The translations under genes and the position numbers were made by a program. The notes beneath the pieces are model-generated. The model did not search any database and was not told the DNA's origin. It worked only from the letters and a program-made list of their open reading frames with translations. From assembly GCA_018350325.1 (NCBI GenBank), contig JAEVLN010000004.1, forward strand, positions 372,001 through 436,000: a DNA stretch of 64,000 nt. The letters run 5' to 3'. Source of the DNA: Globodera rostochiensis (taxonomy: Eukaryota; Nematoda; Chromadorea; Rhabditida; Heteroderidae). Shown one piece after another: positions 41,194 through 44,401 of this stretch. Numbering within the stretch: the stretch's first letter is position 1; every line of letters starts with the position of its first letter.

Positions 41194-43231
41194 TCATTTG
41201 TCATGTTCAAAAAACGTCCCCCCCCACCTCCTCTCCACCAACGACACGCGTTGTTCTGCTCCAATTTGCTTCAACATGGCCATTGTGTCAGCGTCGTTCA
41301 AACTGAAAATGGGCTGCTGAATGACGACAGTGCCGAAGCCAAGCTGGCGTAGCAAATCGTCAGCAGGGAAGATGGCATTGTGCTTCTGCTGCTGCTGGTG
41401 GTGACGATGACTGGTGAAAGAAGACGGAGATGTACAAAGTTGTTTAGTGACAATCGAGGAATACGGATAGGGAGGCACATACGCAGAAGAAGCCGAATGC
41501 GTCAACTGACGACGGTGATCAATGGGATGATGATGATGATCAGCCGTCGCTGTCTGCTGTTTCAGTTCCTGCTTCAGAAGAACCTCCCCGCTCCTCAACG
41601 ACGATCGCCTCTCATATGTTCTGTCGTCCACTGCTGTATGTGTCGTCGTCGTTTTTGTAGCCGTTTGAACAGTTGTTATTGTGCGCAACTTCTTTCGAAC
41701 AACACCAACAACATTTTCTTCCCGTGACTTTGTGCTCTGTTCTTTGCTCCGTTTAAGCGGCAACCGTTTCTGGGCCGGCTTCACCTCCTTCTTGTTCTTC
41801 TTCTCCTTCATTCCCGTTCCTTTCTCTCTGATCAACCTCGCCGCCTTCCTGACACCGGCACTTCCTTTTCCTCTATGATTATTGATGGTGGTCTTCTTCC
41901 GTTTCGTTTTGTTGCTGCTTCTGCCCACGGGCCTGTTGTTGACGGTGTTCGAGCTCTCCATCTGCACCAATGTCCGATCGTCCGGAAGATCCTCTGAATT
42001 CGTTTTGCAAAACCCATTCATTGTCAGTGTGTTTTCACGGTTCCGATTCCAAAGCGGACTCGGGACATTTAAACACCGTTTCAGAACAAAAAAACGAATT
42101 ATTTTCTTACCTTCCCCAACTACCAGCTCGCAGTTGTTGTTGATCATGCCCTTGTTCACGTCCTCCGGGTCCACTTTGAATGAACGTCTCATGGCAATGC
42201 CTTCAAAATTAGTAATTTCAATCACCGGTGAAGCGCACATTCCAACAGCAAATAACATTTGTCGATCCCGTTCATCATTGGTCGGAACATTTGGTGTTGA
42301 TAGTAATGGACAATCATCATCAGCACGTTCAGCAACAATGTCAACGTTATGTACCGCCATCTCAATGCTCTCATGTTGATCAATGCGTTCTTCCCCCCTT
42401 CCGGCGTCGTTTTCCTTATCAAGGTCGTCCTCCAACAACTGATCAGGAAGACATGGACATGGGTGAAAAGCGACGCCGCCAACATCAGCGGCAAGCGGTA
42501 CGTTATGTGTTTTGTCCACTTCCTCATCAGCGCACACTTCCGCTTCATCCGCCAACGACGACGACGGCAAGCTGTCCAAATAAGTGCCGACGCTTGTGCC
42601 AATGCCAAGAAAAGAAGCACTCCTCCTCCCTTCTCTTTGTGGTCCCACCGCCGCTCTTTGTACCACCGGCGGTGCCGCCGCTTCATCCGACAAACTGTTC
42701 AGCAGGTAGGCGACGCCGCTCCATTGGCTAACACAATCAACGCTTCCACCTGCCTCAATAATGCTGTCGTCGTCCCCCCTACTCCCGTCCATCTTGCTTC
42801 TTTTGGCACTTCGAGTCTGGACCAGCGTACGTCGTCGTTGTCGTCCATTCTTCGTTTTCTGCCTGCTCTTCCGTTTTCGTCCTGCACCCATCGTATCATC
42901 ATCATCATTACGCTTCTTCCCCACAACAACTTGCTTCAAACTTTCAACACCGTCGTCCAATTGGCGCACAACCAAAGTAACCAACGACTGAACAACCGCG
43001 TTCACATCGTCGCGCAATTTTCGTCGCAAACGTTCCCGCCGGCGATATTTGATGCGCGACATTTTGAACCGCCTGCTCAACGCATTTTTGGAATGACGAC
43101 GACAATTTGGGCCTGAAAAATAAAAAAAATTCAAAATATGACTTGTGGACATTTCAGGACATCAATCTCACTTACGTATTGGTTCACTTGATTTTAACAT
43201 TGGTGGCTGCTTGTACATGTAGACTAACATT
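41194..43231 (-). CDS. Large basic protein of unknown function, 657 codons, possibly the 3' part of a COPG chimera
   Basis: The last exon (41194-43112) joins in phase, over a short intron (GTAAGTG to TTTTTCAG), to a small exon (43176-43231). That exon holds an ATG at 43228-43230 directly after an acceptor, CTTTCAG|AATG. Read alone the protein is 657 aa and starts MLVYMYKQPPMLKSSEP. It has an arginine-rich N-terminal segment (RIKYRRRERLRRKLRDD), basic stretches that look like nuclear localisation signals (GRKRKSRQKTKNGRQRRR; NKTKRKKTT), acidic and histidine/glutamine-rich regions, and a conserved-looking C-terminus (DDLLRQLGFGTVVIQQPIF). No family is recognised. The acceptor just before the ATG can be served by a spliced leader, or by the donor after the truncated COPG copy (43523): the latter gives an in-frame 840-residue fusion. 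A GTAAGAAA near 42112 has no phase-compatible acceptor, so the large exon is taken as unspliced. Confidence 0.6.
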
Positions 43232-43522
43232 CTGAAAGTTTGGACTGTTTGAATGCAAAACAATCCTTCGACTATCAGATACCCTTCATATTACAATAGA
43301 GTTGAGTTCCAACCCTTCGGGGGAGACGGGGGGGGGGGGAGGAGGGAGACATGTCACGGGTTAGGGGTAAGCACCAAATTATCAGGGGGCCCATGGGTGG
43401 CATGTTTAGTAGGCTCGAGGATCCTCGGTGGCGGCATGCCGGGGGGGGGGGGAGTGGCACAATGAAACGCATTGTAAAAACGGTCACTTTCTTCACAGAA
43501 CATGTCAAAAATGGACAAAAAC

Positions 43523-44401
43523 CTGAACTTTTGGACCATCTTCAGTATGGCGAGCCGGTCGTTGGCACGGATTTGGGCGAGCAACGAAAGTGCATGGAAC
43601 TGCACCATGTGGTTGTCGGTGGACACCGCCTCCTGCACCTCATTGGCCCATCGACGGACCACCTAAGAAAAACGATCAAAATTTTGATAAAATTCAAACA
43701 TTTTAAGCGTCATTTGTTGGAATTAGAACAACAAAAATCCAACAAAAAAACAAAATCTACCGACAAATCACCTGCAGCATGCCGGTGTCTGTCAGAATGC
43801 GGCACAATGCGCGAATTGCAGGAGCCCGGTACACGTCCTCTCGCCCGGTCATGTCCTTCGTCAGACTGTAAAAAAAGACCAAAAAAATGGGTGTTTTTAT
43901 TTTGGGTTTTCGCCAAATTTAGCCAATTTTGTTTCAAAAATCCCATTTATTGAGGCCAATTCAAAACAAAAACAAAAAGCCCGAAACCTGCTGGTGACAA
44001 TGATCACGTCGCTGGACATCTGACATAACTCCTTGATGGCAAGGTAGACGAGCATGCGCAACGTCATGTCCTTGGCTTGCCAAAGTTTTGTAATGGCAAA
44101 GAATGTGTCGGTGGCCTCCGTTTTGCCGATGGTCTCCCCGTGTTGCAGCAAATACAGCAACTTGCACAGAATGGGACGACATTTGCGCGCGTTCACCGGC
44201 GTCTCGTTGAACGCGCGGGTCTGCAACAAATTGTAAAAAGAATTTTCCAGAAAAATTACAAAAATTTCCTATAAAAAATTTTATGCTTTTTCCAATCGAG
44301 CAAGAAATTAAAAAAAAAACCTCCTGAACAACGGTTGCCTTGTCCAAATGGTCGTAGGGATTCCCAGCAGCGGCTTCATCGTCTTTTTTGTCGCGTCGCA
44401 T
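43523..44401 (-). pseudogene. Truncated COPG copy: exons 1, 2, 3 and 5
   Basis: Exons on the minus strand: 44321-44401, 43988-44220, 43772-43865 and 43523-43662. They encode the start of gamma-COP (MRRDKKDDEAAAGNPYDHLD) through exon 3, then exon 5 (VVRRWANEVQEAVSTDNHMV to MVQKF). Exon 4 (102 bp, 34 codons) is missing together with parts of its flanking introns, and the frame is kept. All splice sites are intact, including the donor after exon 5. Everything from exon 6 on is absent, so no functional coatomer subunit could be made. It may be a dead fragment, or the 5' part of a chimeric gene with the basic protein at 41194-43231, since phase 2 after exon 5 plus the single A before the ATG gives AGA ATG in frame. 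Confidence 0.85.

Follow-up and report, generated by a model that had tools for sequence, protein, structure and literature searches.

Introduction

According to Katju (2012; PMC3449122), a chimeric gene duplicate combines duplicated stretches from at least two donor sequences, of which one or more must be genic. In that study, 40% of young C. elegans duplicate pairs (116/290) were classed as chimeric, a figure that is probably an overestimate (about 23% after correction), and gene conversion limited to the shared part of such duplicates is discussed. The trunk of gamma-COP has been described as binding Arf1 (PMC5482573).

Here we describe a locus of the potato cyst nematode Globodera rostochiensis located in a window of 64,000 nt on contig C34, from 372001 to 436000 (the whole stretch of DNA analysed, to which positions refer unless a contig is named). 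It quite probably carries a genuine chimeric gene, an old two-donor structure in which 5′ exons of the gamma-COP gene (COPG) and a zinc-finger-like tail would be joined in one spliced mRNA, as judged from sequence comparison. The COPG donor lies next to the chimera, in the right arm of an inverted repeat, and the type of the tail donor is found on contig C28 and in a G. pallida protein record (P0005). Both are genic, the second as a predicted zinc-finger-like gene. As a kind, chimeric duplicates are already known (PMC3449122); what is unusual here is an N-terminus apparently maintained by gene conversion. Compared with the duplicates described by Katju (2012), the Globodera event is apparently older than a species split, both of its donors can be named, and the N-terminal donor still seems to overwrite its copy. 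Palindrome P6 of the human Y chromosome (PMC3723533) is kept alike by arm-to-arm gene conversion, its inverted arms being much more similar than expected from their age. The arms described here may be a comparable case; they are small (about 1 kb), apparently only partly homogenised, and belong to two genes with different 3′ ends.

Anatomy of the probable chimeric gene

The left arm carries copies of COPG exons 1, 2, 3 and 5 on the minus strand (Table 1), whose 81 + 233 + 94 + 140 = 548 nt are letter-identical to the corresponding exons of the right arm. COPG exon 4 (45750-45851 in the right arm, 102 nt, in frame) is missing from the left arm, where the reading frame is unbroken. The last copied exon ends with a phase-2 donor (AG/GTTTTT), and the acceptor TTTCAG/AATG at 43231 leaves a single A before the ATG of the tail. 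The first tail exon (exon A, 56 nt) has the donor GTAAGT and is followed by 1919 nt from 43112 to a stop at 41194. The initial annotation had proposed this chain of 548 + 56 + 1919 nt as a truncated COPG N-terminus spliced in frame to an unknown basic protein. The exons, the phase-2 donor and the in-frame joint could all be rebuilt to the base, giving 2523 nt (840 codons plus stop) with 0 internal stops; a frame match at the joint has a probability of 1 in 3 by chance alone, and it is the recurrence of the fusion in two G. pallida records that goes beyond chance.

The 3′ end had to be revised. Comparison with three Globodera protein records (P0002-P0004) guided a corrected model of 2583 nt (860 codons plus stop), in which an overlooked intron divides the long tail exon and a donor at 41228 leads to two further exons. 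The stop at 41194 lies beyond this donor, within an intron, and was rejected as the end of the gene. All exon junctions of the chimera are predictions from sequence.

Table 1. Features of the COPG/chimera locus (positions within the window).
Feature	Position	Strand	Remarks
Chimera exon 1, copy of COPG exon 1	44321..44401	-	start codon 44401; 81/81 identical to 44918-44998
Chimera exon 2, copy of COPG exon 2	43988..44220	-	233/233 identical to 45101-45333
Chimera exon 3, copy of COPG exon 3	43772..43865	-	94/94 identical to 45456-45549
Merged remains of COPG introns 3 and 4, lacking exon 4	43663..43771	-	alignment to both introns
Chimera exon 4, copy of COPG exon 5, phase-2 donor	43523..43662	-	140/140 identical to 45943-46082
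Hybrid intron, COPG intron 5 and C28-type	43232..43522	-	alignments to right-arm intron 5 and C28 intron
Tail exon A, acceptor CTTTCAG/AATG	43176..43231	-	acceptor and phase as in C28, there after exon ...KCPY/R
Tail exon B1	42111..43112	-	gene model from P0002-P0004 and C28
Tail exon B2, after intron 42110-41994	41228..41993	-	P0002-P0005 all read ...GE/EDLPDD across the intron
Tail exon C, SGSFLFIPPKGSVHYLGG...	41071..41161	-	in P0002-P0005; overlooked in the initial annotation
Tail exon D with stop codon, VDEFCEGNLVGTVERWP...FVFFA*	40544..40663	-	matches P0002-P0004
Spacer between divergent starts, candidate shared promoter region	44453..44866	.	414 nt, between the arms
Right arm, COPG exons 1-5 and start of intron 5, source of left arm	44867..46142	+	arm alignment
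COPG gene, first 12 exons as modelled	44918..49498	+	open over 600 codons; exon 8 probably overlong by 18 nt

The COPG model used here covers the first 12 exons, and the closest relative among the matches listed is G. pallida GPALN_005913 (P0006). The arms consist of inverted-repeat pairs of 530 nt (100% identity), 148 nt (99%) and 221 nt (94%); a fourth pair of 85 nt (76%) overlaps the other three. It had been proposed that a partial inverted duplication placed a coatomer promoter and 5′ exons in front of another gene. The duplication does supply in-frame 5′ exons, and the fusion is also present in other Globodera protein records. The promoter part of this claim has to be narrowed: since the upstream duplication comprises only the 51 nt adjoining each ATG, which are identical between the arms, a captured coatomer promoter could be at most the 414-nt spacer. 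A bacterial promoter scan of the locus was set aside, the organism being a nematode.

The fusion joint lies in an apparent hybrid intron

The first 29 nt of the intron that follows the last COPG-derived exon are identical to right-arm COPG intron 5, and the first 60 nt align with 53 matches, 6 mismatches and 2 gap columns. The COPG part begins at 43522 and reaches at least 43494, possibly about 43464. A later part resembles an intron of the tail's relative on C28: positions 43389-43340 match this intron with a local score of 47 (best of 200 single-base shuffles, 28), and an additional match adjoins the acceptor. The C28-type part therefore runs from at least 43389 (perhaps about 43469) to 43232. 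Between about 43494 and 43389 the match is less clear, and the breakpoint is accordingly located only approximately.

On C28, an exon ending in CCGTACAG/GT and the acceptor CTTTCAG/AATG enclose a phase-2 intron and give KCPY-R-M in frame. The breakpoint thus lies within introns of equal phase, COPG intron 5 and the C28-type intron both being phase 2. The joint looks like an intron-intron fusion, and the hybrid intron like a signature of intron-mediated exon shuffling. In C28 and P0005, this acceptor is preceded by a coding exon that ends in the same phase; the site at 43231 is therefore probably an inherited cis acceptor, itself a prediction in both relatives.

The tail is half of a duplicated zinc-finger-like gene

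In the G. rostochiensis genome (92.6 Mb, 80 contigs), the 655-aa tail frame matched itself, an identical copy on contig C5, and C28 in two pieces (72% and 84%). When residues 480-884 of P0003 were used as a query, four of 5,085 candidates reached E ≤ 0.05, and one of these was new: P0005 (A0A183CDM5, G. pallida, 1314 aa, database label 'C2H2-type'). P0005 begins with a long N-terminus of another kind and, after KCPYR, continues with the MLVYKEF... of the chimera's tail; from residue 579 onward the two are the same protein. Over 481 shared columns, the tail is 82% identical to P0005 and 79% to C28. The C28 pieces match P0005 residues 1-1274 in order, except for 108-114 and 1071-1084; as aligned they contain 0 stops, and when extended they hold one TAA and one TGA. 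By these comparisons, the tail corresponds to the 3′ half of a zinc-finger-like gene that was duplicated and has a fuller relative on C28. An independent basic-protein gene lacking known relatives, as initially annotated, was abandoned once the region search had turned up P0005.

A search at the window locus with P0005 found no match for residues before 615, a negative that covers large exons only since the search also overlooked the short exon A, which alignment adds from residue 579. The large N-terminal exons are therefore not present at this locus.

The tail's relative may be a zinc-finger protein of the C2H2 or WRKY-GCM1 type. Pfam searches of the 655-aa frame found 0 families, and DBD_Tnp_Mut was matched below threshold only (E 0.08 for P0005, 0.0085 for one of three N-terminal pieces tried). 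This similarity to the MuDR transposase DNA-binding domain involves P0005 residues 327-354 and a C28 exon near 394600-395400. The N-terminal half of this relative might therefore have originated from a zinc finger of the transposase type. Within the tail region of C28, a stretch at about 389114-389549 (L031:9114-9549) has 45-nt inverted ends that are 98% complementary, like a small transposable element; the coding pieces flanking it are about 1.2 kb apart, and it might either be removed as an intron or interrupt the gene.

When the tail in the window was compared over its first 1700 nt with the C28 pieces that precede this insertion, 20 of 21 indels were multiples of 3, indels of 3 falling partly in triplet-rich DNA. 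The dN/dS between the two paralogous tails is 0.82 over 570 codons and exceeds 1 in two of eight blocks, which indicates that constraint on the tail is weak.

The fusion is predicted in two Globodera species

A protein search with the tail frame covered 5.8 billion proteins and scored the 7,993 candidates with the most words in common; three matches reached E ≤ 0.01, all from Globodera and each with an Adaptin_N domain. No Heterodera protein was among the matches of this method, which depends on exact words in common and on candidates being of comparable length. P0002 is a Globodera record of 779 aa, whose alignment to the window model has 755 identical residues out of 777 and 85 gap columns; it omits tail pieces present in the window model and has one piece in another frame. 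P0003 (GPALN_005914, 884 aa) and P0004 (A0A183BZE3, 820 aa) are from G. pallida. All three carry the fusion without exon 4 and with the same joint, one codon longer in G. pallida. As far as the listings show, P0002-P0005 are predicted proteins; G. rostochiensis lines and G. pallida D383 are described as annotated by BRAKER with RNA-seq (PMC8359618, PMC10946958), and P0002-P0004 might or might not stem from these annotations.

In both G. pallida pairs the COPG record is adjacent by number (GPALN_005913/GPALN_005914 and A0A183BZE2/A0A183BZE3), which suggests neighbourhood and says nothing of orientation; GPALN_005913 and GPALN_005914 are on contigs equally long. By their differing sources and sequences, the two pairs would come from separate assemblies. 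P0003 and P0004 differ at 35 of 481 shared tail columns, which is much for one species and could reflect a population difference or sequence quality.

Among 523 four-way columns of the window tail, P0003, C28 and P0005 (P0004 being left out of this count), 28 group chimera with chimera, one groups by species and one is crosswise; the tail duplication therefore predates the species split. Because both species share the fusion and its lack of exon 4, the joining to COPG also appears to be older than the split of G. rostochiensis and G. pallida, which has been put at about 18 million years (PMC6188557). The fusion itself was undescribed, and the record names absent, among the best matches in the open-licence PMC literature, as covered by titles and the beginnings of abstracts.

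Arm identity and possible gene conversion

No differences separate the arms over the 548 exon bases (124 synonymous sites), 51 upstream bases and 122 bases of intron 2; intron 1 has 1 mismatch and 2 gap columns. In the intron 3/4 remnant, the first 19 nt match intron 3 exactly, and the other 90 nt align to intron 4 with 77 matches, 9 mismatches and 9 gap columns. The probability of 0 synonymous changes in 124 sites is 4.9e-6 at an assumed dS of 0.10 and 0.084 at a dS of 0.02. The dS between the species would be about 0.12 by rough scaling from the tail, the inputs being a dS of 0.186 between paralogues (102/481 residues different) and 68/481 residues different between species. For G. pallida, the COPG part of the chimera was compared with the COPG of the same species (P0018) after removal of exon 4: of 182 residues, 3 are different in P0003 and 6 in P0004, and neither contains a stop.

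A chimera apparently older than the species split, with 0 of 548 exon differences between arms, points to recent arm-to-arm gene conversion, which is the simplest reading of the arm identity and not a proven one. An open frame in the left arm would need no selection if conversion recopied it from COPG again and again, and it could then not count as independent evidence for translation. We tentatively consider, as something that may well not hold, that palindrome conversion has repeatedly re-copied the COPG 5′ exons and so held a near-perfect N-terminus without selection since before the split, next to a fast-evolving tail. If this were true, an essential gene would be the standing template for a domain of its neighbour, and the fusion protein could affect Arf- or COPI-dependent transport as a truncated competitor.

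Alternative explanations

The open frame of the left arm would also be expected if the COPG fragment were a non-functional duplicate, kept open by conversion, with the mRNA of the tail starting by a spliced leader at 43231 and annotation gluing the two together. The tail ATG is placed one base past the acceptor, passive upkeep of the fragment by conversion is plausible given the identical exons, and the fusion records appear to be gene predictions. The probable cis origin of the acceptor, which in C28 and P0005 follows an upstream coding exon in the same phase, weakens this alternative. Furthermore, the fusion is predicted in two species, in frame both times despite the extra codon in G. pallida, where the fragment is stop-free and has diverged from COPG at 3 or 6 of 182 residues. 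In our estimate, this alternative is unlikely.

The extreme similarity of the arms might rather suggest an assembly artefact, either a fold-back read or mis-joined haplotypes, and redundancy is present in this assembly: C34:352001-476000 corresponds to C5:1463321-1587359 in opposite orientation over 124 kb, with 0 mismatches and 39 gap openings. The whole chimera/COPG arrangement recurs on C5 inside this match. Most likely one locus was assembled two times and no biological duplication is involved; given the absence of mismatches, the C5 copy was rejected as independent confirmation. Of three short C34 pieces searched, C34:5001-6500 is also on C5 (98%), and C34:1200001-1201500 and C34:1900001-1901500 had no C5 match. 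A fold-back, however, would be a plain mirror image, whereas exon 4 is missing from the left arm, one patch of its introns has diverged and its end passes into an intron resembling that of C28; the G. pallida records show the fusion as well. On these grounds an artefact was rejected as extremely improbable. Exon identity of the arms would likewise need no conversion if the chimera had formed independently in the two species, and recently in G. rostochiensis. This we regard as having almost no likelihood: exon 4 is absent and the joint is the same in both species, the chimera tails group across species (28 columns against 1 and 1), and these arms show 9 mismatches in an intron patch of about 90 nt.

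Proposed origin and possible action of the fusion protein

For the genuine chimeric gene that we favour, the following course can be proposed. Before G. rostochiensis and G. pallida diverged, a duplicate of the 3′ half of a C28-type gene would have come to lie beside the COPG start. In front of it, the 5′ part of COPG would have been copied in inverted orientation, comprising exons 1-5, of which exon 4 was lost at that time or afterwards. The breakpoint would have fallen inside two phase-2 introns, so that COPG exon 5 would splice to the tail in frame. A single mRNA would start in the spacer and be spliced through, and the arms may have been homogenised by gene conversion with COPG. In the predicted protein of 860 aa, the initial alpha-solenoid helices of gamma-COP, minus those residues encoded by exon 4, would be followed by a basic tail that is probably disordered.

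All 182 residues encoded by the COPG-derived exons are those of the neighbouring COPG. Compared with gamma-COP (PF01602, PDB 3TJZ, 5A1U), the chimera nevertheless lacks the 34 residues of exon 4, the remaining trunk and the appendage, and has a foreign tail instead; a complete trunk plus appendage is not encoded. Its best Adaptin_N stretch covers profile positions 3-109 of 524, and its N-terminal part aligns to the gamma-COP chain 3TJZ_B at 5-146 and then at 171-219, the step corresponding to exon 4. A structure model from four sequences had a mean pLDDT of 32 and was useless. With 34 sequences (the three fusion records and 31 COPG relatives hand-picked from the 120 listed), the mean rose to 43, with block means of 54-94 over residues 1-190 and mostly below 50 beyond. 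In Foldseek searches, COPI entries occupied ranks 1 to 7, including 3TJZ gamma-COP, with TM-scores of only 0.15-0.17 by query length; this largely repeats what the sequence match shows. Speculatively, the N-terminal solenoid might bind an Arf- or coat-type partner, the tail bringing its own, perhaps nuclear, partners. A truncated competitor and a re-targeted solenoid are both guesses.

The locus offers an animal two-donor chimera in which the donor types, the intron-intron joint and the retained phase are all directly readable. The species pair allows testing of whether conversion from an essential neighbour maintains a domain of a new gene. The fusion also explains protein records listed only by an Adaptin_N type domain. 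Reads, probes and knock-down constructs for the COPG 5′ end should be used with caution, as they would match two genes. Further downstream, a tandem repeat of about 37 nt, rich in CCCCGAC, lies within a COPG intron (48285-48459).
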